Below are positions 9,816-27,592 of a stretch of 40,489 nt of DNA, piece by piece (the first letter of the stretch is position 1; the number at the start of each line of letters is the position of its first letter). The notes below the pieces were generated by a model, which worked only from the letters and a program-made list of their open reading frames with translations, was not told the DNA's origin and searched no databases. The translations under genes were made by a program, and so were the position numbers. The stretch is taken from the IMG/VR virus record IMGVR_UViG_3300034736_000523, positions 1 through 40,489 of that record; one strand, 5' to 3'. This DNA is from a virus.

Positions 9816-9894
9816 AGAAACTCCAAAAGAATACTAGGGCAAGAGGAACACATCCTACGATACCCGTAGCTTGAAAGAATAATGTACAAGAAGT

Positions 9895-9967
9895 CCTCTT
9901 AAAGAGGTCTGCACATACGTGTAACATGAAAAGTTACACTAGAACTATTGGAAGTATGTTTACATAC
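9895..9967. repeat. Three consecutive inverted repeats in the late leader
   Basis: Three perfect inverted repeats stand within 73 bases. CCTCTT-A-AAGAGG lies at 9895-9907, GTGTAAC with a 7-base loop and GTTACAC at 9919-9939, and GTATGT-TT-ACATAC at 9954-9967. They lie between the candidate late promoter and the holin start. They could be protein operators or leader RNA hairpins; none is followed by a clear U-tract. Confidence 0.6.
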
Positions 9968-9991
9968 GACCTTGTTGTTAGCATTATGATT

Positions 9992-10020
9992 AGTATAGAT
10001 AGAAGTTATAAATAAAGCAA
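9992..10020 (-). promoter_or_regulatory. Candidate sigma-70-like promoter for the left late block
   Basis: On the minus strand a TTGCTT box (10015-10020) and a TATACT box (9992-9997) are separated by exactly 17 bases. The -10 matches consensus at five of six positions, the -35 at three. Transcription would run into the holin gene through a leader of about 170 bases carrying three hairpins. This is seen by eye only; no start site is known. Confidence 0.4.
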
Positions 10021-10170
10021 GTCTACATAAATAAAATTTATTAATCATCCGACTGCTACTGTGCGAAGTATGACTTCAGTCATGGTGAGCAAAAGCAAAG
10101 TCGTATTACCGAGGCTAATTTTTGTAAAAATTTGTGGAGTGTTATGCATACACACACCGTGGGAAGCAAA

Positions 10171-10276
10171 CCCCCTGCTGGGGGCAATCATCCAGCGAAG
10201 CTGGTATACGTTATGTTATAACATTACAATTACACACGGATGTGGGAGGCCTAGCAATCCTAAAGGATTACCAGCC
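10171..10276. repeat. Cluster of GC-rich hairpins and a palindrome
   Basis: In order: CCCCC-TGCT-GGGGG (10171-10184), CCAGC-GAA-GCTGG (10192-10204), the perfect palindrome ATGTTATAACAT (10213-10224), and a two-part stem with outer GGC/GCC and inner AATCC-TAAA-GGATT (10248-10276). The first and last elements are each preceded by a similar ACACAC...GTGGGA stretch (near 10152 and 10233), as if a structured element had been duplicated. A small RNA or a structured leader are both possible. Confidence 0.5.
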
Positions 10277-10546
10277 TAAGTAACTGTTATGTATATAGTT
10301 AAGCCATGTTGCAAGCCTCATGTCTTACACTTATCAGTGATGTGATTGTTACTCTTCTATATATATGTATTTATATAGCTATTCTTTCTATCATTCAAAC
10401 TTATAGATAATGCTGTTTACTATTTGTACAGTGGTCTAATCTCTTTCAAGGAATAGTAAGGCTAGGGTTTAAGTATTATGCTCTTAGAATGGCTTATAGG
10501 AAGTTTTATGAGTATTGTATGTTTATACATATGTACAAATTAATTG

Positions 10547-10576
10547 TTGACTCCTCTTCTTATTCTATGATATGCG
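10547..10576 (+). promoter_or_regulatory. Weak candidate early promoter
   Basis: A good -35-like TTGACT (10547-10552) follows an AT-rich stretch. The only spacing-compatible -10 boxes are poor: GATATG at 16 bases or TATGCG at 18. A better TATGAT (10566-10571) is only 13 bases away. It is about 155 bases upstream of the first plus-strand gene, so the location fits an early promoter, but the assignment is weak. Confidence 0.25.
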
Positions 10577-10729
10577 CATACGCGGTTCATCATATTGTTA
10601 TTAAATGGCAACTGGTCTGAACAGTTAAAAACAATTAGACAATGCTCAGATTCTGTCCATACTGTTTAACAGCGGAAACAAAACCAGTATTCGCACTAGA
10701 TGAGAATCATTCTCAATAAGGAAAATAAG

Positions 10730-10942
10730 ATGAACAACGATACAAAATTGATAATAGCGAAGGCCTTAAGGTCCAAGTTCAATGAGATACAGCACGATCT
10801 CTTAACACTCACATACATGGGGGATGAATACATTTTAGATAAAGTGCGAGAAATGCAAGATACATATCGTGTATTCAGTAAAGTATCTGATGAGCTAAAA
10901 GCTGAAAGTCGTGAACACTACGAAAAATTGTTGGGGGTATAA
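10730..10942 (+). CDS. Hypothetical small early protein
   Basis: This 70-residue charged, probably all-helical protein starts MNNDTKLIIAKALRSK. An ATG at 10700 in the same frame is possible, but the one at 10730 has AAGGA eight bases upstream and is preferred. It is the first gene of the plus-strand arm, the position where T7-like phages place small host-interaction genes. I do not recognise a family and assign no function. Confidence 0.7.
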   Translation: MNNDTKLIIAKALRSKFNEIQHDLLTLTYMGDEYILDKVREMQDTYRVFSKVSDELKAESREHYEKLLGV

Positions 10943-10943
10943 G

Positions 10944-11018
10944 ATGTTCTTATATCAAGGGCAGTACTACACATTACAACAACTTATTATTTTAATTAAA
11001 TCAAAGGGTATATTATGA
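10944..11018 (+). CDS. Possible 24-residue coupled ORF
   Basis: An ATG one base after the preceding stop, with GGGGG upstream, opens a 24-codon frame (MFLYQGQYYTLQQLIILIKS and four more residues). It ends in a TGA overlapping the next start (ATGA). The perfect fit between two coupled genes suggests translation, either as a real microprotein or as a coupling leader. Length alone cannot prove coding. Confidence 0.4.
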   Translation: MFLYQGQYYTLQQLIILIKSKGIL

Positions 11019-11260
11019 CAATTCAAGCGATAAACAAAAAGTATAATGCAAAGGTTAACAAGGCGTATAAGGCATTGCGTAAGTATTATGCATTGGTTGA
11101 CTTAGAGGATACTTTAGAGCTTTACAGTGCCGCAATGTCTCGACTCGAATCTAAACAAGAAAGGGCGCATAACATTTACATAGATACGCTGGACGAAATG
11201 CCACTAAGAGAACAGATAAACTTATCTAAACAACATGTTGCATTACACGGGTACACATAG
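11015..11260 (+). CDS. Hypothetical small early protein
   Basis: This is an 81-residue, basic N-terminal, mostly helical protein (MTIQAINKKYNAKVNKAYKA) with no recognised domain. Its start overlaps the stop of the tiny ORF before it, and AAAGGG lies upstream. It belongs to the run of small unknown early genes and is followed by a hairpin at 11281-11304. Confidence 0.7.
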   Translation: MTIQAINKKYNAKVNKAYKALRKYYALVDLEDTLELYSAAMSRLESKQERAHNIYIDTLDEMPLREQINLSKQHVALHGYT

Positions 11261-11280
11261 CCGATTAATAATATTGCTAT

Positions 11281-11304
11281 AAAGCACTGCTATCAGAGTG
11301 TTTT
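11281..11304 (+). terminator. Hairpin between early genes, possible attenuator/terminator
   Basis: AAAGCACT (11281-11288) pairs with AGTGTTTT (11297-11304) around an 8-base loop, with one G-U pair. The right arm ends in TTTT but no longer U-tract follows, so it may be a weak terminator or an mRNA-processing or stability hairpin ahead of the 11351 gene. Confidence 0.4.
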
Positions 11305-11350
11305 ATGTCAAACTTATTATCTTTTAACATTCATCTACAGGAATAAAACA

Positions 11351-12022
11351 ATGACAATTTTATTAACGAGTTTTAGTGCAAAGCTAGACAAGTCCCAGAC
11401 AGACAATTGGCTTAATGCCGTTATGTATCTCGACCCTAGTTATCATCAAAGTGTATGCAAAGGTAGATCAAAGGGTTGTTATGAGTCGTGCTTAGTTAAC
11501 AGTGGTAGAATGGGTATGACAATGGCAGTTAATGCTAGGAAGAACAGAACAGATCGCTTCTTTAAACAACGTGATCTTTTTCTTATCCAGCTTAAGGGAG
11601 AGATAGCCTCTAAGTTAGCGCAAGCACAAAAACAGGGGAAGCGGTTAGCTATTCGCTTAAATGGTACTAGTGATATTGATTGGAGTGAGATATATAACAC
11701 GTTCCCTATGATCCAATTTTATGAGTACACAAAGCGACCCGACTTAGCTAAGAAATTAGCCAAGATAGATAATGTTAACGTGACGTTTAGCAAGCATGAG
11801 AATCACAGTGCTAAAGCAGTGCATAAGGTTTTAGCTAGGGGGGTGAATGTTGCCGTTGTCTTCAGCGGTAAAGTACCTGCGAGTTATATTGATATAAAAG
11901 TCATCGACGGGGATAAGCACGACCGGAGATTTGAAGATGATAAAGGGCGCATCATTGGTCTTAAGCTTAAAGGCACAAACAAAGTTAAACAACTCGCTAT
12001 ACAATCGGGGTTCGCAGTATGA
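11351..12022 (+). CDS. Conserved phage protein with a cysteine cluster, function unknown
   Basis: The 223-residue protein has a striking N-terminal cluster CKGRSKGCYESCLVNSGR (Cys-x6-Cys-x3-Cys) near residues 36-53. A region reading AIRLNGTSDIDW follows, then alternating strands and helices (QFYEYTKRPD, VTFSKHEN) suggestive of a barrel-like enzyme fold. I recall similar phage and plasmid proteins of the gp88-like type, without known function. Three close cysteines could bind a metal or an Fe-S cluster, but that is inference. It overlaps the next gene by 4 bases (ATGA) and is the largest protein of the early accessory cluster. Confidence 0.8.
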   Translation: MTILLTSFSAKLDKSQTDNWLNAVMYLDPSYHQSVCKGRSKGCYESCLVNSGRMGMTMAVNARKNRTDRFFKQRDLFLIQLKGEIASKLAQAQKQGKRLAIRLNGTSDIDWSEIYNTFPMIQFYEYTKRPDLAKKLAKIDNVNVTFSKHENHSAKAVHKVLARGVNVAVVFSGKVPASYIDIKVIDGDKHDRRFEDDKGRIIGLKLKGTNKVKQLAIQSGFAV

Positions 12023-12258
12023 TGTATATTAAACCTTTAAACATGTGGGACAATGCCACACAAAAAGCGGTTATCTCAGGTCAAATAAAACTCCAAGCTG
12101 GCCAGTGGGTTAGGTGTGGCAGTGGTCGCCTTAGTCGCTTCATATGTGTACGTAATAAGACATTATGGTTGGCCCATTGGCAAGGTACAACAAGGGCGAC
12201 AGAGAAAAAATTCCAGTCATTACTTCAAGCAAGCAAGGGGAGAAAAGAAAATGTATAG
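12019..12258 (+). CDS. Hypothetical small protein following the cysteine-cluster gene
   Basis: This 79-residue protein has a compact beta-like core (KLQAGQWVRCG, then SRFICVRNKTLWLAHW). It overlaps the stop of the cysteine-cluster gene and so is probably co-translated with it. I have an impression that the same pair occurs in other phages, but no function is known. A role as partner of the preceding protein is inferred from coupling only. Confidence 0.65.
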   Translation: MMYIKPLNMWDNATQKAVISGQIKLQAGQWVRCGSGRLSRFICVRNKTLWLAHWQGTTRATEKKFQSLLQASKGRKENV

Positions 12259-12439
12259 CACAAAATTTATTAAGTTCGGATTGTATGAGTTACATTGTAG
12301 TAAGCTTGGCAATGTTGGGGTTGCTGTTCTCTATAGTGCAGGAAAATATGCCGTATCATTTGATGACCCGTACCCGCTAACAATAAAAGAGATGGAAGAT
12401 TTGCAACAAGCATTAAAACAATTGGAGCAAGGCGAATGA
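12251..12439 (+). CDS. Hypothetical small protein
   Basis: The 62-residue protein starts MYSTKFIKFGLYEL and ends in an acidic helix. The chosen ATG has AGGGGAG about 10 bases upstream; a longer frame from 12116 would run inside the previous gene without a ribosome site. It overlaps both neighbours and matches no recognised domain. Confidence 0.6.
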   Translation: MYSTKFIKFGLYELHCSKLGNVGVAVLYSAGKYAVSFDDPYPLTIKEMEDLQQALKQLEQGE

Positions 12440-12636
12440 ATAAGATTACAGCAGTTGAATTCTATAACGCTAAAGCTGAAAGCGTAAACAAGGGAGCGGA
12501 TTTTATATCAGCATTTCAATCTAAATGCGGGGGGTATATCTCTCGCTCTTATCAAGTCGATACATACAATTTTGAATGGGTCGAGAGTCGATACAACAAG
12601 GCAACAAAAACCGTATTATATTTTGGTAGCAGGTAA
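12436..12636 (+). CDS. Hypothetical small protein
   Basis: This 66-residue protein (MNKITAVEFYNAKAESVNKG) is coupled to the preceding gene through an ATGA overlap. Mixed helix then aromatic strand pattern; no domain recognised. It is one of the chain of small accessory early genes. Confidence 0.6.
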   Translation: MNKITAVEFYNAKAESVNKGADFISAFQSKCGGYISRSYQVDTYNFEWVESRYNKATKTVLYFGSR

Positions 12637-12681
12637 CTGCTATCATTAATGCTATCACGCGAATTTTTAAAAGGTAAAATT

Positions 12682-12990
12682 ATGTTATTAAACGAGAGAA
12701 AAATAGTTTTAAGCATTCTTTCTTATGCATTAGATAAAGGGTTATCCGTTAGCGTTAACGATGGGGAGGAAGACACGCTTGATTATTCTACAGACATCAA
12801 TGAAATATTCGAGGCATTGGATACAACGGGGGATGATTACATCTTTTTTCATGACGCGGATAAAAAAAGCTTAGGGTATTACTGGTTTATCTATGGCAAT
12901 GGTAATGAAGGGCTAGATGTTGTATCAGACTCCAGCATGACTAATCTAATAGATGAAATTGATCTACATATACAGGATTTAAAATTATGA
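12682..12990 (+). CDS. Hypothetical acidic protein
   Basis: This is a 102-residue, strongly acidic protein (MLLNERKIVLSILSYALDKG at the start, then GEEDTLDYSTD). The ATG at 12682 has AAAAGGT seven bases upstream, better than the in-frame ATG at 12649. The acidity would suit a DNA-mimic or protein-binding inhibitor, but nothing in the sequence proves that. The stop overlaps the next start. Confidence 0.65.
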   Translation: MLLNERKIVLSILSYALDKGLSVSVNDGEEDTLDYSTDINEIFEALDTTGDDYIFFHDADKKSLGYYWFIYGNGNEGLDVVSDSSMTNLIDEIDLHIQDLKL

Positions 12991-13220
12991 CAAACAAACA
13001 AATTATCGCAGAAATAAGAAAAGGTGCTAAGCAGTACGGGTTAGTATTCAAGCAGGCGAATACCAGATTAAACGGCTCATACGTATGGCAATTAAACGAC
13101 CGTTTAACAAGTGAGTGTGTGATGTCAAATTACCAACTCATTAGTGCTTGGTCAGACTATTTGAGCGGCTATATGTCAAGCTACAACAAACAGACAGGAT
13201 ATTTTGAGGGAGTAAGGTAA
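12987..13220 (+). CDS. Conserved small phage protein, unknown function
   Basis: The 77-residue protein has the pattern MTNKQIIAEIRKGAKQYGL, then LNGSYVWQLNDR and SAWSDYLSGYMSSYN. I recall similar short proteins in other phage early regions without known function. Probably one small alpha/beta domain. It overlaps both neighbours by 1-4 bases. Confidence 0.65.
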   Translation: MTNKQIIAEIRKGAKQYGLVFKQANTRLNGSYVWQLNDRLTSECVMSNYQLISAWSDYLSGYMSSYNKQTGYFEGVR

Positions 13221-13435
13221 TGAATAGAATGTATGAATTGGTCTTGATAAAAGACATAAAAAAAGAATATAAAACCATCAGAATAGGGTCAGAGATGGAC
13301 ACGCTATCTATAATCGAATTGTTCAGTGATGCAGAGAGTATTTTATTTGCTAGAAGCAAAAGCACATCCTGTAATTACGTTTTTGTGGATTCTGCTTCTT
13401 TTAATTTTAAGTTTAAAGAATTGGAGAATTATTGA
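13220..13435 (+). CDS. Hypothetical small protein
   Basis: This 71-residue protein (MNRMYELVLIKDIKKEYKTI) alternates beta strands and helices. Its ATG overlaps the preceding TAA. No family recognised. Confidence 0.6.
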   Translation: MNRMYELVLIKDIKKEYKTIRIGSEMDTLSIIELFSDAESILFARSKSTSCNYVFVDSASFNFKFKELENY

Positions 13436-13602
13436 TGATGCGGGACATAGTGAAGGCAAGAGACGAAAGGGGAAATGTAAGCATTATGGGAGAGCATGAT
13501 GATCGCCTCGATGCATTAGAACACGAGCAAATGCTCACAAAAGAATACCCCCTGATGTACGTGTGGATTGAGACAGTACACTATTGGAATGAAGATGAGT
13601 AG
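13435..13602 (+). CDS. Hypothetical 55-residue protein
   Basis: A frame of 55 codons (MMRDIVKARDERGNVSIMGE onward) begins on the last base of the preceding stop. It has two adjacent ATGs and GGAG upstream, and it ends where the next small membrane gene begins. It is acidic, with an aromatic C-terminus (YVWIETVHYWNEDE). Coupling on both sides supports it as real; function unknown. Confidence 0.55.
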   Translation: MMRDIVKARDERGNVSIMGEHDDRLDALEHEQMLTKEYPLMYVWIETVHYWNEDE

Positions 13603-13771
13603 CATACTGGCTTATACATGTTTAGCCTTGGCAGTAGTAAGCATAATAATGATGCTAGATATTAAAGAGGATATTAAAAATAATAGGGTAACTGTAAAAT
13701 ATTTATGTATTCATGTCGTATTAATGATTAGTATGATTATTATTATGTGGAATATTATAGATTCTATATAA
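13595..13771 (+). CDS. Small two-TM membrane protein
   Basis: This 58-residue protein has two hydrophobic segments, residues about 4-22 (ILAYTCLALAVVSIIMML) and 39-56 (YLCIHVVLMISMIIIMW), joined by a basic loop. The ATG at 13595 overlaps the previous gene and has GGA at suitable spacing; upstream in-frame TTG and ATG codons are less likely. Small early membrane proteins in phages can block superinfection or antagonise holin, but neither can be chosen here. Confidence 0.6.
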   Translation: MSSILAYTCLALAVVSIIMMLDIKEDIKNNRVTVKYLCIHVVLMISMIIIMWNIIDSI

Positions 13772-13873
13772 CTGAAAAAAAAGAAAAGGACAAAAGAAAA
13801 AAATATATGACAAGAGCATACATTTTACGGGCTGGCAGTGCAATCTAAAAATTCTCTGTCAACCCCCTTTTGC

Positions 13874-13917
13874 GACGAAACGTCCATAAAACGGGACGAA
13901 TGACTGTTGATAACAGT
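13874..13917 (+). promoter_or_regulatory. Alternative hairpins and palindrome ahead of the primase operon segment
   Basis: In the 170-base gap 13772-13941, GACG-AAA-CGTC (13874-13884) competes with CGTCC/GGACG (13881-13885 with 13894-13898) for the same CGTC bases. A 15-base palindrome ACTGTT-GAT-AACAGT (13903-13917) follows about 25 bases before the next ATG. The layout suits an attenuator plus an operator, but no regulator is known. I saw no convincing sigma-70 promoter in the gap. Confidence 0.35.
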
Positions 13918-13941
13918 TATTATTTAGATTAAAGGTAGATT

Positions 13942-14106
13942 ATGATATTCACACGTAATAAATTAGACACAAAAGACCACACTATTTTAAATAAATTAGT
14001 AGCATTTGGCGGTGACATAAAATACAGTAATGGACTGTTCATTTGGAACAGTAAAAGTTTTTCAGATGTTAAGAGCATGGAAAAACATATGGAGAAAATG
14101 AAATGA
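13942..14106 (+). CDS. Hypothetical 54-residue protein
   Basis: A 54-codon frame (MIFTRNKLDTKDHTILNKLV onward) has AAAGGT upstream and an ATGA overlap with the next gene. Basic, with a helix-strand-helix pattern. It is the first gene after the 170-base regulatory gap, so it may head a new transcript running into the primase-helicase. Confidence 0.6.
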   Translation: MIFTRNKLDTKDHTILNKLVAFGGDIKYSNGLFIWNSKSFSDVKSMEKHMEKMK

Positions 14107-14336
14107 AAACTATAATTCATGTTAATCAACACGTAATAAAGAGTAACCGCAAAGATAACGAGGTGAACCCTGTACTTACGTGTAAGACCTACAAGACCAA
14201 CGAGTACACCAACACGGCACTCGTCATGAAAGATGGCGAGGAAGTCGGTAGGTTTGTATATAGACCAGACAAGCCCTTATCATGTGGGGCACATGTCTGG
14301 TTTGAGACAAACTGCGAAGTAATAGAAGAGGTTTAA
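14103..14336 (+). CDS. Conserved small phage protein near primase, unknown function
   Basis: The 77-residue protein has the conserved pattern KTIIHVNQHVIKSNRK near the start and YRPDKPLSCGAHVWFET near the end. I recall this type from many T7-like and siphovirus early regions, where it has no assigned role. It probably forms one small beta-rich domain. The stop is followed by one base before the primase-helicase ATG, so they are co-translated. Confidence 0.75.
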   Translation: MKTIIHVNQHVIKSNRKDNEVNPVLTCKTYKTNEYTNTALVMKDGEEVGRFVYRPDKPLSCGAHVWFETNCEVIEEV

Positions 14337-14337
14337 A

Positions 14338-15996
14338 ATGAGCGGATCTTTTGTAGGTAAAATTGATTGTCCTAAATGCGGCAATGGAAACTCACTAAAT
14401 ATGTGGGAAGAGGACGATGTGAGGACAGGTTACTGTTTTCATCACAGTTGTAAATCTTATTTCAATGAGAAGTCATTATCAGAGGCTCCAGACAGTGATG
14501 TAGCGTACACAGAGAAAGAACCATATGACATAAGCTGGGTTAGTAATTTAAAGGCTATGGATAACGTCACAAGAGGTTTAAAAGCTGGTGCTTACAGACA
14601 TTTCGGGGTAGTTCATGGGGTTAGTACTCAGGACGGTAGAACATTATCAGAAACATACTACCCATTACGTGATGCGGGAGGTGAAACGATAGCGTATAAG
14701 GTGCGTATACAGCAGCCTAAGAGTTTCTATGCGATGGGGCAAGTACGTGCTGGCCTACCCTTTGGCTGGAGGGAAGCATTAGAGCAAGGTGGTTATTCTC
14801 TGTACATAACTGAGGGGGAGGAGGACGCAGTAGCAGTTTATACAGCTTGGATGAGAGAAAAGAAGCAGAAAGTTGCGGTTATCTCTCTAAAAAATGGCAG
14901 TAGTAGTGTAGTAAAATCGTTACAGCCTATTTTAAAGGACATCACAGATAAATATAAGCAGGTTGTGTTCCTACCAGATGCTGATAGCAGTGGAGAAGAT
15001 GCTGTTAAAAGTATTCGCTCGTTGTTCCCTACTAATTACCCTGTGAAAATAGGGAAGTACAGTGAGAATGATGCAAATGACATGGTCAGGGAAGGTAAAG
15101 AGAAGGAATTAGTCTCAGCTTGTTACAATGCAGGTGTTCCTTTGTCATCAGAGATAATAGCACCAGATTGGGACATGTTCGAAGAGCTAAAGAAACCATT
15201 GGAATTTGGATTGAGCTATCCTTGGCCTACACTCACAAAACTAACGAGAGGGCAGAGAGCGGGTGAGGTTATTTACTGGGGCGCACCTCCAAAAGGCGGT
15301 AAAACTACATTAGTCAATCTTTTGGCGGGTTGGAACATCAAAGAACACAATAGAAGAGTACTGATTGTGAGTCCTGAGTCACCTCCGAAAGCGACATTGA
15401 GAAGATTGTCAGGCTCATTAGTCAATAAGATATTCCATGATCCAAACATCGTAGTTAATCCTGATGATGTCGATAGAGCCAGAGGAATAATTGGCGACAA
15501 GCTACACATTTTTACAAAATGGCAGACACCTAATTGGGCAGATACTAGACAGTCTATCAAAGAAGAGGTGATGATGCAGGGTATTAAGGATGTGTATATA
15601 GACCCCATCACTAATTTCTCGGTAGGCATGAGTAGTAGTGAGAGAAATGATTTTCTAATTACAATGACAAGAGAGTTGTCAGAAGATGCTGCTAATTACG
15701 GGTTCACAGCACATGTATTCTGTCACTACAACAAAGCTCCCAAGGGAGACAAGCAGTGGAGTCAGGGACGTATACCGAGCAGTGACGACTTAGCAGGTAG
15801 TGGTGCTATGGCACAAGCATGTAACACAGCTATTGGTTTACAAATTTGGAAAGTGACTGAAGGAGAGGACATGGATTACTTGAACAACTCAAGAGTTCTA
15901 CATATACTCGAAGACAGAGAGTTCGGTGTAGTAGCAGCGATACCTCTTAGATGGAATTCTTATACAGGTAAATTAGAGGAGCAACAAGATGATTGA
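14338..15996 (+). CDS. T7 gp4-type primase-helicase
   Basis: The 552-residue bifunctional enzyme primes and unwinds DNA at the phage fork. A zinc-binding domain uses Cys11, Cys14, Cys33 and Cys38. The TOPRIM primase core shows LYITEGEEDAVAVY near residue 155 and VVFLPDADSSGEDA near residue 212. The RecA-like hexameric helicase has Walker A GAPPKGGKTT near residue 315, Walker B VYIDPITN near residue 420, FCHYNK and GSGAMAQACN further on. Length matches T7 gp4 (566). It precedes the regulatory genes and DNA polymerase in the same operon. Confidence 0.95.
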   Translation: MSGSFVGKIDCPKCGNGNSLNMWEEDDVRTGYCFHHSCKSYFNEKSLSEAPDSDVAYTEKEPYDISWVSNLKAMDNVTRGLKAGAYRHFGVVHGVSTQDGRTLSETYYPLRDAGGETIAYKVRIQQPKSFYAMGQVRAGLPFGWREALEQGGYSLYITEGEEDAVAVYTAWMREKKQKVAVISLKNGSSSVVKSLQPILKDITDKYKQVVFLPDADSSGEDAVKSIRSLFPTNYPVKIGKYSENDANDMVREGKEKELVSACYNAGVPLSSEIIAPDWDMFEELKKPLEFGLSYPWPTLTKLTRGQRAGEVIYWGAPPKGGKTTLVNLLAGWNIKEHNRRVLIVSPESPPKATLRRLSGSLVNKIFHDPNIVVNPDDVDRARGIIGDKLHIFTKWQTPNWADTRQSIKEEVMMQGIKDVYIDPITNFSVGMSSSERNDFLITMTRELSEDAANYGFTAHVFCHYNKAPKGDKQWSQGRIPSSDDLAGSGAMAQACNTAIGLQIWKVTEGEDMDYLNNSRVLHILEDREFGVVAAIPLRWNSYTGKLEEQQDD

Positions 15997-16150
15997 GTTA
16001 TCAGCAGAAGAAGTGGCACTGAGAATTATCAGACTACGCAATGATACAAGAACAAGAGAGCATGAGATGGCTATTATGAAAAGAAAAATGAATGCGGCTA
16101 GGATTATAGAAGATAAGAAGATTGAAGCACCAAAGGAGCAAGGCGAATGA
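15989..16150 (+). CDS. Hypothetical 53-residue helical protein
   Basis: This 53-codon frame (MIELSAEEVALRIIRLRNDT onward) starts inside the end of the helicase gene, behind the AGAGGAG sequence. It encodes a highly charged single long helix, ending with an ATGA overlap into a further tiny frame. Function unknown; its position suggests co-translation with primase-helicase. Confidence 0.6.
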   Translation: MIELSAEEVALRIIRLRNDTRTREHEMAIMKRKMNAARIIEDKKIEAPKEQGE

Positions 16151-16221
16151 CTAACCAAGAGATTTTAGCTTCAAACGCATTATCTATGCGTTCGCATATA
16201 TTTGTGTTATTTCTACTGTAA
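16147..16221 (+). CDS. Doubtful 24-residue ORF over the hairpin region
   Basis: A 24-codon frame (MTNQEILASNALSMRSHIFV and four more residues) overlaps the previous stop by ATGA but runs through the ACGCAT/ATGCGT hairpins. It may be a translated leader rather than a functional gene. Confidence 0.2.
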   Translation: MTNQEILASNALSMRSHIFVLFLL

Positions 16222-16250
16222 ATAAGCTGCAATTACCGCGAACGCATATA
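16175..16250 (+). repeat. Inverted and direct repeats of an ACGCAT motif
   Basis: ACGCAT-TATCT-ATGCGT (16175-16191) and TATGCG-TT-CGCATA (16185-16198) share the ATGCG bases and so cannot both form. A related unit, GCGAACGCATATA (16238-16250), repeats GCGTTCGCATATA (16188-16200) with two mismatches, 50 bases on. The 156-base gap sits between the helicase and a small regulator cluster. It may be an operator array, an attenuator or an origin element. Confidence 0.45.
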
Positions 16251-16263
16251 CTATGAGGTCAGA

Positions 16264-16314
16264 ATGCAGGTTACAATTACTGATACTAAGCAAATAGGGA
16301 AGAGTGATGAATAA
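16264..16314 (+). CDS. Doubtful 16-residue ORF
   Basis: A frame of 16 codons (MQVTITDTKQIGKSDE) ends overlapping the next start. It is listed only because it would couple translation to the next gene; it has no clear ribosome site. Confidence 0.15.
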   Translation: MQVTITDTKQIGKSDE

Positions 16315-16450
16315 AGAAGATTTAAGATTGTTAATAGCCAAAACTAAATCACAACATGAGCGTTGGAAACGTATCAGTAATCAAACAGTTGAACAGTTGA
16401 TTGATGCACTGGAAACACTAAGTAAGGAAAGGGAGGGAAGGGATGCTTGA
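16307..16450 (+). CDS. Hypothetical 47-residue protein
   Basis: A 47-codon frame (MNKEDLRLLIAKTKSQHERW onward) encodes a charged amphipathic helix pair. Preceded by GGGAAGAG, it overlaps the start of the HTH gene by 8 bases. No family recognised. Coupling to the DNA-binding gene next to it suggests joint expression. Confidence 0.5.
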   Translation: MNKEDLRLLIAKTKSQHERWKRISNQTVEQLIDALETLSKEREGRDA

Positions 16451-16664
16451 TTTAAAAAAATGGTTGGAGGTAAAGGATCACAGAGTGGAGATGGTTAAAT
16501 CCTATGTTGAGGGAAAAACAATTGCTGAGATATCAGTAGAGTTTAATCGTCCTACGAGATGTGTTCAATACCACATGGGGGAGTACATGCCAAGTCAAGA
16601 AGATATTGACATTTTTAAACGCAAATTCGCAGCAAAGAAACTTAAAACAAAGAGGTACGAATGA
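16443..16664 (+). CDS. Small helix-turn-helix DNA-binding protein
   Basis: In this 73-residue basic protein, residues about 18-45 (YVEGKTIAEISVEFNRPTRC) read as a homeodomain-like helix-turn-helix: a helix, the turn at N-R-P-T, then a recognition helix ending VQYHM. The C-terminus is Lys-rich (KKLKTKRYE), suited to DNA. It overlaps both neighbours and stands just upstream of the zinc-ribbon and sigma-like genes. A phage transcription regulator is likely; the target is unknown. Confidence 0.65.
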   Translation: MLDLKKWLEVKDHRVEMVKSYVEGKTIAEISVEFNRPTRCVQYHMGEYMPSQEDIDIFKRKFAAKKLKTKRYE

Positions 16665-16825
16665 ATTATCCAGATAACATAGGATGTGATACCTCAGACC
16701 CCCGCAGTCCTTTCTACACAGAACCACCTGAGTGTGACGAGTGCGGAGAGGAGCTTAGTATAGACGTAGACTGTGATGAGGACGGACCATACACAGTAAC
16801 ACACTGTAAGAATTGTGATGATTGA
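16661..16825 (+). CDS. Small zinc-ribbon-like acidic protein
   Basis: A 54-codon frame (MNYPDNIGCDTSDPRSPFYT onward) has two CxxC pairs, CDEC near residue 25 and CKNC near residue 49, arranged like a zinc ribbon, in a very acidic context. It overlaps the previous stop (ATGA) and the next start by 8 bases. Such ribbons often bind nucleic acid or RNA polymerase, and with a sigma-like gene following, a transcription role is a fair guess but unproven. Confidence 0.6.
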   Translation: MNYPDNIGCDTSDPRSPFYTEPPECDECGEELSIDVDCDEDGPYTVTHCKNCDD

Positions 16826-17336
16826 CTTGCATAAGGAGCGGAAGTTTGTATACAAACTACTAGACAGAGCTAAGATGCCGTACCCCTTAAGAGAAGAGAA
16901 GTTCCAAGATTTTGCTGCATATTTTTACGAGAATTATAAGTACGATGATACGTATACAGAATCAACGTACATAGGATTGTTGTTTGGTAATTGGTTGACT
17001 TTGTGCGCTATAGAGTACAAGAAGAAATACAAAATCTTAAATCATTTGACAACTAATACAGATGATAAGAGAGCAGACTACTTAGATTGGGTTCAGAGTG
17101 ACGCTCAAGATTATAATGATGCTACACAACAAGAAATATCAGTGTATTGTGAGGAAGTGTTCTCTAAATTTAAACCTCTGACACAGGAGTATCTTTTAGA
17201 GAAAGCAGGTGGAGGTAGTCTCAACGGTTCTGATGGTCGTCTTGCAAGAGGTGTTGCGAAAGAGGATGGTGTAACAAGACAGGCTGTAGAGCAGAGAATA
17301 CAGAAAGATTTAAAAAAAGTTTTAAAAGACTTATAA
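16818..17336 (+). CDS. Sigma-70-like RNA polymerase factor (putative)
   Basis: The 172-residue protein has the outline of a small alternative sigma factor. An N-terminal helical part reads EEKFQDFAAYFYENYKYDDT with a following WLTLCAIEYKKKYK, in the style of sigma region 2. The C-terminal part ends ARGVAKEDGVTRQAVEQRIQ then KDLKKVLKDL, in the style of the region 4 helix-turn-helix. The start is the ATG at 16818, not the GTG one codon earlier. No single-subunit RNA polymerase gene is present, so a factor redirecting host polymerase to late promoters would make sense. The similarity is by eye; another HTH regulator is possible. Confidence 0.55.
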   Translation: MIDLHKERKFVYKLLDRAKMPYPLREEKFQDFAAYFYENYKYDDTYTESTYIGLLFGNWLTLCAIEYKKKYKILNHLTTNTDDKRADYLDWVQSDAQDYNDATQQEISVYCEEVFSKFKPLTQEYLLEKAGGGSLNGSDGRLARGVAKEDGVTRQAVEQRIQKDLKKVLKDL

Positions 17337-17367
17337 CATACACAACAACTGTTTGAATGGTGAGTAT

Positions 17368-19398
17368 ATGAAATTAGTATGTGACATAGAGGCTAATGGT
17401 CTCTACGAAGAAGCAGACACAATACACTGTGCTGTATTCAAAGATGTGGATACAGGTAAGGTGTATCGGTTAACAAAGAAAGAAAGCATCATCAGGATGT
17501 TAGAGAAGTGTACGTATCTTATTATGCACAACGGTGTAGGTTACGATGTCCCACTTATTAAAAAGGTATACGGGTACGAGTACAAGGGCAAGATACTGGA
17601 TACAGTTCTAATGTCACGCGAAGTATATAAGAATAAAAAAGTGCCAGAGCAAATGAAAGAAGACTGCAAGGCTGCTGGTAAAAAGCTTAGTGGTCCTCAT
17701 AGCCTAGCAGCATGGGGCTATAGATTAGAGAGAGGCAAGGTCGAGCATGAGGATTGGTCTGTATTCACAGATGACATGATGCATAGATGTGTAGAAGATG
17801 TAGAGATAACGCACTTGCTGTACAAAGTACTGATGGGGTTAGAGCCTAAGTTCAAGACTGATAATAAACCTTGGAACAAGGAAGAATTTCCTAGCAAGGC
17901 ACTTTGGCTCACACATAACTTCATGAGGGTTATTAGTAGACAAGAGAAGCATGGTTGGAAGTTAGACATCGAGAGGTGTGAAAGAAGTCTACATCAGTTA
18001 TCGAAGTGGATACGTTGGATAGATGTTGTACTAGAATCCCATTTACCTGTATTACCCATCATCAAAGAAGACAGGCTTGATGAGAATGCTGATAGCAGTG
18101 GATTTCAAAACCCATTCACTAAAGCTGGTGATCTAAATGTTAGGTTACAAAACTGGATAGACAAAGAACATATTGACTGGAATAGAGATACTATCGGTGG
18201 CAGTTTCTGCAGGGTTACATTCAGAAAAGTCAGTCTCAATTCAGATAAAGAAACAAAAGAGTGGTTACTAGCTATGGGTTGGCAACCAGAAGAATATAAT
18301 TACAGTAAGAAAGAGGTAGATGAAGATGGTAATCCTAAGCGTACTAGTCCTAAGCTTAATTCTGATGATGCATTTATTGGTGTTGATGGTAAAGTTGGTA
18401 GACTCATTTGTAAAAGGGTTCAGTGTAGACACAGACAATCAAACATCCAAGGGTGGCTGGATAGGGTTCGCAGTGATGGTAGGTTGGAGTCTAGGATTAG
18501 TGGCTTTGCTGATACTTATCGAGTACGTCATGCAAACATAGCTAATGTTCCTAATGTGAATAGTTTCTACGGTAAGATTATGAGAAAGTGTTTCACATGT
18601 GAAGAAGGTATGGTGTTAGTCAGTGCGGATGCTGCTGCTTGCCAAGACCGTATGATTATATCAAGAGCAAGAGATGTTGGTATCAAAGACCCCATCTTCG
18701 AGGACATGATACTCAACGGAGACAAATCCAAAGGTACGGATAGTCACAGTAGAGCAAGAGATGAGATTAACATTTTGTTTGCTAAGATGGGTATCAAACC
18801 TATCAATCGTGGTTCAGCTAAGAATTTCTCCTATGCCTATAAGTTCGGAGGAGGAGCTAAGAAGCTTGGCTTCATGGCAGGTGAGAAGAATGAAGCGAAA
18901 GCTATTAAGATAGGTAAGGCTATTAAAGAAGCCTTCGACACAGTATTCCAAGCTCAGATAGAACTACAAGAACACTTGAAGAAAGAATGGATAAAGAGGT
19001 CTAGGAGGAGGCAGGTTAAGTACAAGTGGAAGGGTAGAGAGCAGGAGAAGACAGAATACTACAATGGTCGTATTAAAGCTCTTGACGGGAGGGATGTGCT
19101 GATAAGGGATGAGAAGAATATACTTGTGTATACAGTACAGAGTGATGAGGCGTTAGTGATGCAACATGCTACAGTCTTAGCTAACCAAAGATTAGACGAG
19201 AAGTACAAAGATGGTATAGACTTTAAGCAAGTAGGCTTCTTTCACGATGAGTACACGTTTGAAGTTAGACCGCTGATAGCAGAAGATGTTAAGGTAATAC
19301 TAGAAGAGAGTATTGCTATTGCAGGAAAAGATTTCAATCTTAATCTCCCTCAGATAGGGGAAGGCGAGATTGGTTATAACTGGAGTGAAATTCACTAG
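17368..19398 (+). CDS. Family A DNA polymerase, T7 gp5 type
   Basis: This is a 676-residue replicative polymerase with a 3'-5' exonuclease. Exo I is CDIEANG (Asp6, Glu8), exo II is near MHNGVGYD and exo III is CVEDVEITHLLY. Polymerase motif A is SADAAACQDRM near residue 418. Motif B is RGSAKNFSYAYKFGGG near residue 482, with Tyr four residues after Lys as in T7. Motif C is FFHDEYTFEV near residue 623. T7 gp5 has 704 residues; I cannot tell whether a thioredoxin-binding insertion exists. The start is ATG 17368 (MKLVCD, preceded by GGTGAG), not the TTG at 17353. Confidence 0.95.
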   Translation: MKLVCDIEANGLYEEADTIHCAVFKDVDTGKVYRLTKKESIIRMLEKCTYLIMHNGVGYDVPLIKKVYGYEYKGKILDTVLMSREVYKNKKVPEQMKEDCKAAGKKLSGPHSLAAWGYRLERGKVEHEDWSVFTDDMMHRCVEDVEITHLLYKVLMGLEPKFKTDNKPWNKEEFPSKALWLTHNFMRVISRQEKHGWKLDIERCERSLHQLSKWIRWIDVVLESHLPVLPIIKEDRLDENADSSGFQNPFTKAGDLNVRLQNWIDKEHIDWNRDTIGGSFCRVTFRKVSLNSDKETKEWLLAMGWQPEEYNYSKKEVDEDGNPKRTSPKLNSDDAFIGVDGKVGRLICKRVQCRHRQSNIQGWLDRVRSDGRLESRISGFADTYRVRHANIANVPNVNSFYGKIMRKCFTCEEGMVLVSADAAACQDRMIISRARDVGIKDPIFEDMILNGDKSKGTDSHSRARDEINILFAKMGIKPINRGSAKNFSYAYKFGGGAKKLGFMAGEKNEAKAIKIGKAIKEAFDTVFQAQIELQEHLKKEWIKRSRRRQVKYKWKGREQEKTEYYNGRIKALDGRDVLIRDEKNILVYTVQSDEALVMQHATVLANQRLDEKYKDGIDFKQVGFFHDEYTFEVRPLIAEDVKVILEESIAIAGKDFNLNLPQIGEGEIGYNWSEIH

Positions 19399-19406
19399 GG
19401 GATATT

Positions 19407-19604
19407 ATGAAAGATGATCACGGTAAAGCAGTGAGTGTAGATGCACGTTGTTATATAAGAGAAAAGGGGGAAGACGGGGAGTCTAGACTTATATTTGGTA
19501 TTGTTACCAATGTGAGTAAGGAAGATTGTGTAGTCCGAGTCTATGATTACGGGAATATACATTCTAAGACAGTGAGTAATGTTTTGTTATCAACAGGAGG
19601 TTAG
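19407..19604 (+). CDS. Hypothetical small beta-rich protein
   Basis: This 65-residue protein (MKDDHGKAVSVDARCYIREK) is preceded by AGGGGA. The pattern of short strands with RLIFGIVTNV and CVVRVYDYGN suggests a small beta barrel. It lies between DNA polymerase and the SSB candidate, so a replication accessory role is possible but unproven. Confidence 0.6.
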   Translation: MKDDHGKAVSVDARCYIREKGEDGESRLIFGIVTNVSKEDCVVRVYDYGNIHSKTVSNVLLSTGG

Positions 19605-19605
19605 C

Positions 19606-19833
19606 ATGAGAGCGCCAGATATATTTATTACAATCCCATCTATTGATGGATATACGTACAATATAAAAACATATGATGTTTTGAATATGGTAGAGTACAA
19701 GAAAAAGTTACGTGTAACGTACAAAGAAGGTAGTGAATGTAAATTCTTTATGACGTTGTTGACGGCTGAAGAAATACATGAAAGAATTATTAAGTTAGAA
19801 GAAGCTAATTTTAAATACACATTTGGAGAATAG
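19606..19833 (+). CDS. Hypothetical small protein
   Basis: The 75-residue protein starts MRAPDIFITIPSIDGYTYNI at an ATG seven bases after a perfect AGGAGG; an in-frame ATG at 19579 would lack this. Beta strands are followed by a C-terminal helix (LTAEEIHERIIKLEEANF). No domain recognised. It ends one base before the SSB-like gene. Confidence 0.6.
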   Translation: MRAPDIFITIPSIDGYTYNIKTYDVLNMVEYKKKLRVTYKEGSECKFFMTLLTAEEIHERIIKLEEANFKYTFGE

Positions 19834-19834
19834 T

Positions 19835-20383
19835 ATGCCAGCAATTAACGGTAACGTAGAAGCAGTAAGCATTAAAGAGATGGAAAAAGAAGACCAGTTC
19901 GGTAATACACATAGAGCCAGCTTAAAGATGGGTGACGACTGGTATTCGTATGGCTCTATAAAGCGGGACGCAGTGAACATCAAGACAGGTAACTCTTGGA
20001 CGCAGTTAGCCAAGGGCATGGAAATTGAGTTCATGTACGACCAAAATGGGGACTTCAAGAACATTAAGAAGAAGACATTCAGCATCACTGATGCTACTTG
20101 TGCAGAAGCAGTGCAACCTGTACAACAATCAGCACCAGCTAGACGAGGCAATGTTAATCCTGCTGAAGTAGGGCAGTGCATGAACTTAGCTGAGTCGGTA
20201 CTAGGTTATAACGGCAAAGACCTCTTGAACCCTGAGAAAGTTACTGAAGCAATTGCTTGGTACAAAGAGGTACGAGTTCTGTTTACTGAGCTGTATGAAG
20301 GTGTGAGTATCCAAGAGAAGGTTGCTAAGGCAGCTCCTCCTCCTCCTCCTCCTTCTAACAACTACGATGATGATGAGGTGTAA
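19835..20383 (+). CDS. Probable single-stranded DNA-binding protein
   Basis: The 182-residue protein begins with an OB-fold-like beta region (about residues 1-95, with DDWYSYGSIKRD and KGMEIEFMYDQNGDFKNIKK). A flexible linker, a helical stretch and a six-proline run (PPPPPP) follow. It finishes with an acidic tail, NNYDDDEV, as in T7 gp2.5 and bacterial SSB, where the tail recruits replication partners. The proline run comes from a CCT microsatellite near 20335-20352. The start is ATG 19835 behind GGAG. Its place after polymerase and before a terminator supports a high-copy replication role. A fold search would settle it. Confidence 0.65.
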   Translation: MPAINGNVEAVSIKEMEKEDQFGNTHRASLKMGDDWYSYGSIKRDAVNIKTGNSWTQLAKGMEIEFMYDQNGDFKNIKKKTFSITDATCAEAVQPVQQSAPARRGNVNPAEVGQCMNLAESVLGYNGKDLLNPEKVTEAIAWYKEVRVLFTELYEGVSIQEKVAKAAPPPPPPSNNYDDDEV

Positions 20384-20397
20384 TTAAAACTAAACTT

Positions 20398-20441
20398 ATA
20401 CCCTTCGGGGTATTTGTTTTTCAATATACCCTTCGGGGTAT
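20398..20441 (+). terminator. Two tandem UUCG-loop terminator hairpins
   Basis: ATACCC-TTCG-GGGTAT occurs twice, at 20398-20413 and 20426-20441. The first copy runs directly into TTTGTTTTT, a textbook rho-independent terminator with a stable UUCG tetraloop. The second copy lacks a U-tract. They follow the SSB candidate and probably set its transcript end, with readthrough feeding the downstream metabolic genes. Confidence 0.8.
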
Positions 20442-20462
20442 GTTACATAACAGGATATTAAA

Positions 20463-20693
20463 ATGATTGAAATAAAAAAAGCTATTTTTTCAGAAGATAA
20501 ATACCACATAATTCTGGCTGGATTCTACATACCCTTTGATAAAGTAGTACTCAGTACTACAGGTATGTTGCAACTTCACAACAACGAGAGGTTTGTTTGT
20601 CTGATTAGCTACGAAAATGAGAAGGAAGTCTCAGACCTTATAAACAAAGAAGGTATCGAAATTACATCAGAAGTATTACAGGGGGAAGAGTGA
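20463..20693 (+). CDS. Hypothetical small protein
   Basis: This 76-residue protein (MIEIKKAIFSEDKYHIILAG) is beta-rich with an acidic C-terminus. It is the first gene after the tandem terminator, with AGGAT upstream. No family recognised. Confidence 0.55.
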   Translation: MIEIKKAIFSEDKYHIILAGFYIPFDKVVLSTTGMLQLHNNERFVCLISYENEKEVSDLINKEGIEITSEVLQGEE

Positions 20694-20878
20694 TGAGCTA
20701 CGAAGAAACGCTTGAAAGAGTAATTGAGCGTTTAGATGATGAAGAAAAAGAGAAAGACAAGCGCATTGCAGAGCTTGAGAAGGCTTTAGCCACTTCTTTT
20801 GAGTTTCTATCATTTAGCCGCCTTTCAGATTGCGTGTTTTATGAAAACCATAAGCACTTAATAAAGGAGCAAGAGTGA
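20693..20878 (+). CDS. Hypothetical coiled-coil protein
   Basis: The 61-residue protein is mainly one charged helix (LERVIERLDDEEKEKDKRIA, then ELEKAL). The ATG at 20693 follows GGGGGAAG; the GTG just before it is in frame but less likely. It is coupled to its neighbours. Similar short coiled-coil proteins often precede DUF551 genes in phages. Confidence 0.55.
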   Translation: MSYEETLERVIERLDDEEKEKDKRIAELEKALATSFEFLSFSRLSDCVFYENHKHLIKEQE

Positions 20879-21231
20879 TGAGGTATTACCAAGGAGAGAA
20901 TTGCACGTGCGCTGCTTGGCACGAGTTCGAGTGTGCGTGTGATGCGGATTGGACAGACCCAGTAGTATATGTTCTGCAAGATCGCGTTAAAGAGCTTGAG
21001 AATCAATGGATTAGTGTGCAGGATAGATTGCCAGAGTTAGAAGATAACTCTGTTCTGGTTTATTTTACTACAACAAGCATTGAGACTGTTCATATTGAAG
21101 ACAATTTTAAGGACATACCAAACGGTTTTGATAAAGAGGGTAATCAATTATACACAAAGTGGTACATATTTTCGGGCATAACCCACTGGATGCCATTACC
21201 TGAGCCACCAAAGGATCAAGAAGATGAATGA
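20878..21231 (+). CDS. DUF551-domain protein
   Basis: In this 117-residue protein the C-terminal two thirds match the DUF551 pattern: QWISVQDRLPELEDNSVLVY, then a variable middle, then GITHWMPLPEPP. The domain is common in phage accessory regions and has no known activity. The N-terminal 30 residues are Cys-rich (CTCAAWHEFECACD) and may bind a metal. ATG 20878 is chosen over the GTG before it. Confidence 0.8.
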   Translation: MRYYQGENCTCAAWHEFECACDADWTDPVVYVLQDRVKELENQWISVQDRLPELEDNSVLVYFTTTSIETVHIEDNFKDIPNGFDKEGNQLYTKWYIFSGITHWMPLPEPPKDQEDE

Positions 21232-21415
21232 ACAAATTGAGTTAGTTAAAAAATGGCTAGCTGATAACGATTCAGTTACACAAAAAGAATTAAACGACAA
21301 CCGTTCTATGGCTTATGCTGCTTATTCTGCTGCTTATACTGCTGATGCTTATGCTTATGTTGAAGGTACTGCTGAATGGGTAAAACGCTATGAAGAACTA
21401 AAGGGGCAAGAATGA
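21224..21415 (+). CDS. Small protein with Ala-Tyr repeats
   Basis: This is a 63-residue protein. An N-terminal helix (EQIELVKKWLADNDSVTQKE) is followed by a low-complexity run, AYAAYSAAYTADAYAY, encoded by imperfect GCTTAT repeats, then a charged helix. Ala-rich short repeats of this sort occur in other phage proteins. Function unknown. It overlaps both neighbours. Confidence 0.55.
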   Translation: MNEQIELVKKWLADNDSVTQKELNDNRSMAYAAYSAAYTADAYAYVEGTAEWVKRYEELKGQE

Positions 21416-21843
21416 TAAATATAAACTTACTCCACATAAATGCCAGACTCCCTACTAAAGGTTCAGAGGAGTCGGCAGGGTTAGACTTATACACCGTTGA
21501 CTCAGTGACGATACCTTCAGGACAACGTGCCTTACTACGTACAGGTCTTGCTATGTCAATACCAGAAGGGTATGTTGGTCTTATATGGCCTCGAAGCAAA
21601 CTTGCTGCTAAGATGGGTATTGATGTTCTAGCAGGTGTGGTTGATTCGGACTACAGAGGCGAGGTAATGATTAGTTTGTTAAACACTGGGTTTGATCCTG
21701 TTGAGATTATGACAGGTGACAAAGTGGCACAGATGATTATCCAAAAGCATTACAGCGATATAGGAATAAACTTAGTACATAATCTAGATGATACAAAAAG
21801 AGGAAAGTCTGGAGTAAACTCTTCAGAGATGAGATTCAGATAA
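21412..21843 (+). CDS. dut: dUTPase (dUTP diphosphatase)
   Basis: The 143-residue trimeric-type dUTPase hydrolyses dUTP to dUMP, protecting phage DNA from uracil and supplying substrate for the ThyX encoded downstream. Motif 1 is AGLDLYT, motif 2 WPRSKLA, motif 3 GVVDSDYRGE (with the catalytic Asp) and motif 4 GDKVAQMI. The C-terminal motif 5 reads RGKSGVNSS, where the usual consensus has Phe and Gly after the second glycine. The aromatic lid residue is therefore replaced by Val. Length is normal. Confidence 0.92.
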   Translation: MININLLHINARLPTKGSEESAGLDLYTVDSVTIPSGQRALLRTGLAMSIPEGYVGLIWPRSKLAAKMGIDVLAGVVDSDYRGEVMISLLNTGFDPVEIMTGDKVAQMIIQKHYSDIGINLVHNLDDTKRGKSGVNSSEMRFR

Positions 21844-21859
21844 CAAGAAGGAGGTCTAG

Positions 21860-21970
21860 ATGAGTACACCACAGTGGTTCAGTAACCCTTATTCAGAACT
21901 CACAGCACAAGATAAAGTGGAGCAGGTTGAATATGAAAGAATCAGAGAAGAGCAAGAATCTAGCGATTGA
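21860..21970 (+). CDS. 36-residue ORF overlapping the exonuclease start
   Basis: A strong GGAGG (21850-21854) stands six bases before an ATG opening a 36-codon frame (MSTPQWFSNPYSELTAQDKV onward). It overlaps the exonuclease start by 38 bases. The ribosome site is among the best in the region, so translation is likely, either as a microprotein or to couple exonuclease expression. Function unknown. Confidence 0.5.
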   Translation: MSTPQWFSNPYSELTAQDKVEQVEYERIREEQESSD

Positions 21971-22712
21971 CGGAGACATCCTCCTCTATAGCATAGGTTG
22001 GGGTAGTGAAGATATTCAAGAGAGTTGGATAGTAGACCAAAGAATTGAAAACTTCTTTAATAACTTATTTAAGAACGTAGGCACAAGTAAGTACAAAGTC
22101 TACCTAACAGGTAAAGGTAACTTTAGAAGCGACTTGGCAGTAAGCCATAAGTACAAAGGTAATAGGAAGAAAGAGAAGCCTAAGTGGTACAAGTACATAA
22201 AAGATTACCTAATGTATATGTATAACACAGACTTAATAGAAGGAATGGAAGCCGATGATGCAATGGCAATGCACCTAACAAGAGATAAGGATGCTGTATG
22301 TTGCTCTATTGATAAAGACTTACTACAAGTCGAAGGCTGGCACTACTCTTGGAAGACACACAACAGGGATGAGATGCCCTTGCGTTATGTGGATTACTGG
22401 GGTAAGTTAGAGAGACGGGAGAAGAAGCTATATGGAGAGGGTGTGATATGGTTGTATGCTCAATCTTTATTAGGGGACTCAACAGATAATATCGTCGGTA
22501 TAAAGGGGTACGGTAATGTCAAAGTCTACAACACGCTTAAAGATTGCAAGACGGAAACAGAGCTATACAATGTTGTCAAAGAAGCATATGAAGGACAGCA
22601 TGGCGAAGAAGCCGAAGTTAAGCTGAAGGAGAATATGGACTTACTGTGGATGGTAAGAGAGCTAACAGATAGAGGAGAACCAATATTATGGCAAGCACCT
22701 ATAATATCCTAA
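21933..22712 (+). CDS. 5'-3' exonuclease (FEN/T7 gp6 type)
   Basis: The 259-residue nuclease would remove RNA primers and degrade DNA during replication and recombination. FEN-family acidic motifs are in order: AIDGDILLYS near residue 12, YKGNRKKEKP near residue 70, EGMEADDAMA near residue 105, CSIDKDLLQ and then SLLGDSTDNIVGIKGYG, the helix-hairpin-helix entry. The start is ATG 21933 rather than TTG 21927. It lies between dUTPase and endonuclease VII, in a recombination module. Confidence 0.9.
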   Translation: MKESEKSKNLAIDGDILLYSIGWGSEDIQESWIVDQRIENFFNNLFKNVGTSKYKVYLTGKGNFRSDLAVSHKYKGNRKKEKPKWYKYIKDYLMYMYNTDLIEGMEADDAMAMHLTRDKDAVCCSIDKDLLQVEGWHYSWKTHNRDEMPLRYVDYWGKLERREKKLYGEGVIWLYAQSLLGDSTDNIVGIKGYGNVKVYNTLKDCKTETELYNVVKEAYEGQHGEEAEVKLKENMDLLWMVRELTDRGEPILWQAPIIS

Positions 22713-22864
22713 GCACTGAAGAATTAGAGGTACTAGATGAAGCTCTAGTGAGGAGTACAATGAAGACAATGAACACTCTGAAACTAAGTGGAGAAGACTT
22801 TATAAATATACCATCCTTCCTAATACAGTTGGAGGCTCTAGATAAAATAAGGGGTTTCACATGA
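22688..22864 (+). CDS. Hypothetical 58-residue protein
   Basis: This 58-codon frame (MASTYNILSTEELEVLDEAL onward) begins inside the exonuclease end, behind GAGGAG, and overlaps the endonuclease start (ATGA). Acidic and helical. The chain of overlaps argues it is translated; function unknown. Confidence 0.55.
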   Translation: MASTYNILSTEELEVLDEALVRSTMKTMNTLKLSGEDFINIPSFLIQLEALDKIRGFT

Positions 22865-23295
22865 CCTTGAAACTGAAGTACAATGAAGTATCTGTACTGA
22901 GAGGAGAGTTACTCAAGAAGAACAAAGATAAATGTCCTATCTGTAAAGAAAAGATAGTACAAGGGGAGGCAGCATTAGACCACTGCCATAAGACAGGTCA
23001 TATACGGAATACTGTGCATAGGGACTGTAATATCCTCCTAGGAAAGATAGAGAACTACATAGGACGTTACGGTAAGAGACTCCGTAATACTGAAGTTCTC
23101 GATGTGGCTCTTAGTCACATAGTTGAATACATGACTCAGGACTACACAGAGAATCCTTTTCATCCTACACATAGGACAGAAGAGGATAAGCAAGTGAGGA
23201 ACTGGAGACAAAGAATGAAGAAAGCTAAGAGAAAAGAAACCAAAGATAAGTATAAAAAGCTTATACAGGAGTTCGACGATGCTAGAAAAATATAA
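22861..23295 (+). CDS. Recombination endonuclease VII-like nuclease
   Basis: This is a 144-residue His-Me-finger nuclease. Zinc ligands are Cys25, Cys28 and a later pair around Cys56; the catalytic core reads LDHCHKTGHIRNTVHRDCN with Asp40, His41 and His43. The family (T4 gp49, PF02945) resolves branched DNA before packaging. T7 uses a different fold (gp3) for this job, so this is a functional replacement in a T7-like setting. The basic C-terminus probably binds DNA. Confidence 0.88.
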   Translation: MTLKLKYNEVSVLRGELLKKNKDKCPICKEKIVQGEAALDHCHKTGHIRNTVHRDCNILLGKIENYIGRYGKRLRNTEVLDVALSHIVEYMTQDYTENPFHPTHRTEEDKQVRNWRQRMKKAKRKETKDKYKKLIQEFDDARKI

Positions 23296-25914: not shown

Positions 25915-25933
25915 AGGGGCTTCTCCAGCCCCT
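25915..25933. terminator. Bidirectional terminator between converging arms
   Basis: AGGGGCT (25915-25921) pairs with AGCCCCT (25927-25933) around a 5-base loop, in the 45-base gap between the two converging gene arms. Pyrimidine-rich sequence (CTTACTCTTCCTTATTT) follows on the plus strand. The stem works in both directions, as expected where two operons meet tail to tail. Confidence 0.75.
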
Positions 25934-27453: not shown

Positions 27454-27475
27454 CTCTTTTACCTCTTATATGTCA

Positions 27476-27503
27476 TTCATCGTATAATATAGACCGTTCA
27501 TCG
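27476..27503. repeat. Direct repeat TTCATCG 21 bases apart in a late intergenic gap
   Basis: TTCATCG at 27476-27482 and 27497-27503 are two helical turns apart, flanking an AT-rich TATAATATA. They lie in the 139-base gap ahead of the HNH-like gene, the largest gap in the right late block. This could be an operator or a late-promoter element; no good sigma-70 box pair is seen on the minus strand. Confidence 0.3.
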
Positions 27504-27592
27504 CATTTATGCTTGACAGGTTTTCAAATATCCAGTACTTTATAAAGATAATCCATAAGTAATTATATATATATCATTATCCTCATTACTTA

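Follow-up and report, generated by a model that had tools for sequence, protein, structure and literature searches.

The window analyzed here, that is, the whole stretch of DNA, is a virus record of 40,489 bases that is classed as linear. Its replication genes are carried on the plus strand and run rightward from approximately 10,700 to 25,903, and the structural genes are carried on the minus strand, where they read leftward over 9,815 to 8 and 40,463 to 25,949. The late genes are thus on the opposite strand, as stated in a preliminary description of this DNA. A divergent non-coding region (9816..10699) lies between the rightward early arm and the leftward late arm, and the meeting point of both arms is a hairpin (25915..25933) that has the form of a terminator whichever strand is read. 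Bidirectional hairpin terminators of this type have been described for cobaviruses (PMC6775973). The match lists of TerL and of the DNA polymerase are both headed by Zobellviridae records, with 45-50% and 39-42% identity, respectively. Judged by these nearest relatives, this is a marine short-tailed phage that groups with the Zobellviridae. Two opposed arms and the lack of an RNA polymerase gene are given as features of this family (PMC9960094), and the window displays both. The ends of the record (1-8 and 40463-40489) fall within the packaging module, where TerL terminates at base 8, the scaffold ORF reaches near the opposite end, and the portal gene is absent. With the record breaking off in this way, roughly 2.5 kb of the genome are estimated to be lacking, the related genome G003 serving as reference.

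The gene under study (16818..17336, plus strand) occupies the slot between the primase-helicase gene (14338..15996, plus strand; PHROG 239, E 4.5e-118) and the family A DNA polymerase gene (17353..19398, plus strand; PHROG 17, E 9e-91), which bears out the position first assigned to this small protein. Translation may start at GTG 16815 or at ATG 16818, and the length of 172 aa is counted from the ATG. The ORF is separated from the DNA polymerase gene by 17 nt, an arrangement that is conserved in near relatives. It is present in all of the near relatives found, with 60-97% identity, and its dN is far below its dS (dN/dS of 0.067/0.398 and 0.288/1.79). In the comparison with L014, where dS is near saturation, its dN of 0.288 exceeds that of the polymerase gene (0.083) by a factor of approximately 3.5. 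The retention in near relatives, the purifying selection, and the raised dN together indicate that the slot ORF is a real, fast-evolving protein gene under purifying selection. Next to it, on the same strand, is an ORF for a 73-aa helix-turn-helix protein (16443..16664) with weak matches to Sigma70_r4_2 and helix-turn-helix models (E 0.011-0.07). This ORF is kept in L002, L012, and L013 and is absent from L014 and L015, and its product is a possible partner of the protein encoded downstream.

When searched alone, the 172-aa protein has no match in Pfam and no sigma factor match among PDB sequences, and it gives a weak sigma match in PHROGs (PHROG 351, E 0.017, residues 82-169). Single-sequence searches (Pfam, PHROGs, PDB, and tblastn against phages) yielded nothing decisive, and the narrow-family profile A6 reached at best FliA, with an E-value of only 0.94. 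The slot relatives, defined as the proteins of 139-200 aa that related IMG/VR contigs encode between primase-helicase and polymerase, are more telling. The Pfam cut-off for Sigma70_r2 is passed by L054 (E 7e-11), L050 (7e-10), L044 and L047 (both 4e-8), L035 (1e-7), L042, L046, L048, and L052, and L054 and L052 also match the sigma family PHROG 1740 (E 1.7e-20 and 2.8e-18). A profile built from 17 slot proteins, with the window group excluded, recovers ECF sigma factors of solved structure in alignments that span regions 2 and 4 (SigW, E 3.9e-17; sigmaE, E 8.6e-15), and the profile of the window group aligns to it with an hhalign E-value of 2.4e-5 and a probability of 75. The 172-aa protein itself is 28% identical over its full length to L017 (E 6e-16), which in turn matches Sigma70_r2 with an E-value of 9e-5. 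The sigma reading is considered settled because relatives in the same slot are recognisable sigma factors, the single sequence being below detection. The protein is therefore, with high confidence, a strongly diverged sigma70-family (ECF-like) factor, in line with the slot orthologues that are annotated as sigma factors. In a separate contig, L023, the slot holds two small proteins (4965-5327 and 5527-5946), the first with a region-2 match and the second with a helix-turn-helix and weak region-4 matches, which is possibly a second case of a split or duplicated sigma factor. Proteins 47 and 48 of phage ICP2 gave no sigma match.

The domain organization agrees with this assignment, and the region-2-like and region-4-like stretches reported earlier are consistent with the alignments and with the models. 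Homology to region 2 is found through the slot relatives (L017, and the slot profile to SigW), and in the window it covers residues 8-79 (16839..17054), predicted as three helices. This region retains an aromatic stretch, STYI..LFGNWL, and the core-binding signature E/D-x-x-Q-D/E (E27, Q30, and D31), which we take to correspond to D403, Q406, and E407 in region 2.2 of sigma70. Region 4 covers residues 105-171 (17130..17330) and contains a helix-turn-helix, VAKEDGVTRQAVEQRI, with helices modelled at 120-130, 141-150, and 154-171. The support for it, which comes from family alignments, the model, and the PHROG 351 match, is weaker than for region 2. Neither region 1.1 nor region 3 is present in the 172 aa, which comprise two helical domains only.

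The full-length model (mean pLDDT 71.5, pTM 0.45) shows these two domains joined by a low-confidence linker. Modelled separately, region 2 reaches a pLDDT of 88.6 and superposes on SigH region 2 at 2.0-2.2 A (TM 0.58-0.66), with Foldseek E-values of 4-10 that are not significant. Foldseek searches with the full-length model gave no match with E <= 0.001. Nonetheless, approximately 45 of 50 among the PDB matches listed are sigma factors, and the putative sigma factor of phage RIO-1 ranks fifth in the viral library. The comparison with sigma folds proposed in the preliminary description thus recovers the helices of both regions and mostly sigma factors as matches, and no single match is significant. 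Because the alignments behind both models contain recognisable sigma factors, these predictions are not independent evidence, and it is the family-level profiles and alignments that give the sigma reading its good support.

With respect to the transcription machinery, the model for single-subunit RNA polymerases (PF00940) is silent in the window and in 16 related records, and in T7, used as a positive control, it finds the gene with an E-value of 1e-109. The absence of a visible single-subunit RNA polymerase gene noted previously is confirmed, and the window lacks the gene that marks the Autographiviridae (T7-type). An N4-type virion polymerase might be missed by PF00940; the 1807-aa virion protein of the window has no Pfam or PHROG match. 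It had also been pointed out that an RNA polymerase gene in the missing part of the genome would speak against a role for a phage sigma factor. The interval that separates TerL from the scaffold gene in G003, G004, and G006 contains one ORF of 585-588 aa, which by its position is the portal, together with small ORFs. Given that the equivalent stretch of the relatives is filled in this way, it is unlikely that a T7-type RNA polymerase gene is hidden in the missing segment.

The divergent region contains a sigma70-like promoter-like site on the minus strand that faces the late arm (9992..10020, TTGCTT-17-TATACT). Sites in equivalent positions are found in G003, G004, G005, and G006, making five genomes with the window, and the site of G003 is near-perfect (TTGACA-18-TATACT); that of the window scores below the threshold of the scanner. 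The same region includes two non-coding blocks, 10053-10092 and 10119-10155, which are conserved in several related phages and perhaps relate to genome ends, an origin, or promoter control. Counts of bipartite motifs in the late gaps show no excess over shuffles, and the pairwise alignment of upstream stretches, which followed the approach of Guzina and Djordjevic (PMC4331800), revealed no repeated phage-type promoter before the late genes. The strong scores in these alignments were rejected, as they correspond to a stretch recounted for adjacent genes, to low-complexity repeats, or to the CCCTTCGGGG hairpin pair. The promoter consensus of phage 7-11 has two scattered, loose matches only in the window. 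A conserved 60-bp non-coding element (27460..27519, minus strand) was identified upstream of the distal late gene 27160-27453 by comparison with G001, G002, and G004. It is near-identical in G001 and G002, and its 16-bp core, GATGAATGACATATAA, is shared with G004 at an equivalent location. As there is a single site per genome, it was rejected as a repeated phage promoter, and it serves at most as a pointer to a phage-specific regulatory site. Two copies of TATACCCTTCGGGGTAT, forming a hairpin with a CUUCGG-type loop, were observed at about 20384-20462, between 19823-20383 and 20463-20693; similar hairpins have been discussed for T4 and 7-11 (PMC8948821).

From the homology to the sigma70 family, the synteny, the lack of a T7-type RNA polymerase, and the two-arm layout, a role can be proposed for the slot protein. 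The host holoenzyme would transcribe the early genes, the slot gene included; the phage sigma factor would then bind the host core RNA polymerase and direct it to phage promoters of non-early genes, and its targets would most likely include the oppositely oriented structural arm. We consider it probable that this small, fast-evolving sigma factor, with regions 2 and 4 only, steers the host core in this manner; core binding, the promoters read, and the late arm as a target are what we infer. The earlier suggestion that the host RNA polymerase is redirected to the late arm is plausible by analogy with phiEco32, 7-11, and the timing in PSA-HP1. It is kept conditional because no repeated phage-specific promoter was found and because five genomes have a sigma70-like site directed at the late arm; the host sigma70 may thus transcribe that arm, with the phage sigma factor serving other genes.

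Indeed, a true sigma factor might target the middle genes or a small number of distal ones, with the host sigma70 reading the late arm from the divergent region. The equivalent placement of the late-facing site in the five genomes and its near-perfect form in G003 would fit this arrangement, as would the presence of the conserved element before one distal late gene only and the existence of early, middle, and late classes in PSA-HP1. However, the window's own site is weak (TTGCTT) and sub-threshold, a different sigma factor could equally recognise its -10-like TATACTA, and in phiEco32 and 7-11 it is a phage sigma factor that drives the late genes, so that we regard this arrangement as rather unlikely. 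It is improbable that the protein derives from a sigma factor and has ceased to act as one, for instance by inhibiting or appropriating the host RNA polymerase to which it binds: its strong divergence, the lack of a Pfam match, and a dN so far above that of the neighbouring polymerase gene could be read in this way, but the protein retains both regions with their helices as well as the core-binding signature, and recognisable sigma factors fill the slot in relatives. That an unrelated small DNA-binding protein resembles sigma factors by chance, as the weak single-sequence searches might suggest, is highly improbable in the face of the full-length match to L017, which itself matches Sigma70_r2, the synteny, and the profile results.

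Returning to the preferred reading, in which the slot sigma factor steers the host core to non-early genes, the most concrete parallels are found in the same slot of other phages, where sigma factors are annotated in RIO-1, several Vibrio phages, and PQ867850. RIO-1, a Pseudoalteromonas phage of the Zobellviridae, carries gp19 (YP_008051089.1, 'putative sigma factor') between primase-helicase and polymerase and, like the window, has an opposed structural arm and no PF00940 match. In contrast with the window protein, gp19 has 221 aa, is only 22% identical to it, and diverges in the C-terminal part; the record of RIO-1 notes a clear sigma factor at that slot in related phages. In the Vibrio phages 468E53-1 and 1.264.O (Zobellviridae), the sigma genes lie directly before the DNA polymerase gene, as in the window, but they consist of two short overlapping ORFs with regions 2 and 4 separate, each passing Pfam, whereas a single ORF is present in the window. 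In L007 and L010 (4443-5002 in both), from Vibrio Zobellviridae, the overlapping ORFs of this split sigma factor encode a region 2 of 85 aa and a region 4 of 101 aa. A tentative extension, which we hold to be possible, is that the sigma factors housed in the slot are diversifying rapidly, in one ORF here and in separate region 2 and region 4 ORFs in the Vibrio relatives, each with its own promoters. If this were the case, close relatives would have switched transcription specificity with the rest of the replication module unchanged.

Since RIO-1, Vibrio phages, and PQ867850 already carry an annotated sigma gene at this position, the gene of the window is an ordinary new Zobellviridae-like sigma gene and no new strategy. 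Its description brings recognisable sigma factors into a branch of marine phages allied to the Zobellviridae in which the gene would go unnamed under standard annotation, and provides a concrete candidate for the as yet unsolved means by which the Zobellviridae switch from one of their opposed arms to the other. In PSA-HP1, a Zobellviridae relative that is close to the window phage in TerL, a sigma-70 gene is expressed alongside takeover genes and the structural genes are transcribed late (PMC7082346).

Cellular ECF factors (SigW, sigmaE, and SigH) share with the window protein the two-domain organization of regions 2 and 4 and a length of approximately 170-190 aa, the differences being that the window protein alone falls below Pfam detection and that no anti-sigma gene was noticed. 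Among podoviruses, gp36 of phiEco32 and gp47 of 7-11 form holoenzymes with the host core RNA polymerase that were found by experiment to read middle or late phage promoters (PMC8948821), and a similar use of the host core is proposed for the window. The Zobellviridae, which are without an RNA polymerase, have themselves been compared with phiEco32 (PMC9960094). Therefore, the solution that had been presented as different from that of T7 is indeed different, but it is not new, being already known for the Zobellviridae and for phiEco32-like phages, and a phage sigma factor that drives middle and late genes is established in phiEco32 and 7-11. These two phages belong to groups other than that of the window phage, and their sigma genes were independently acquired.
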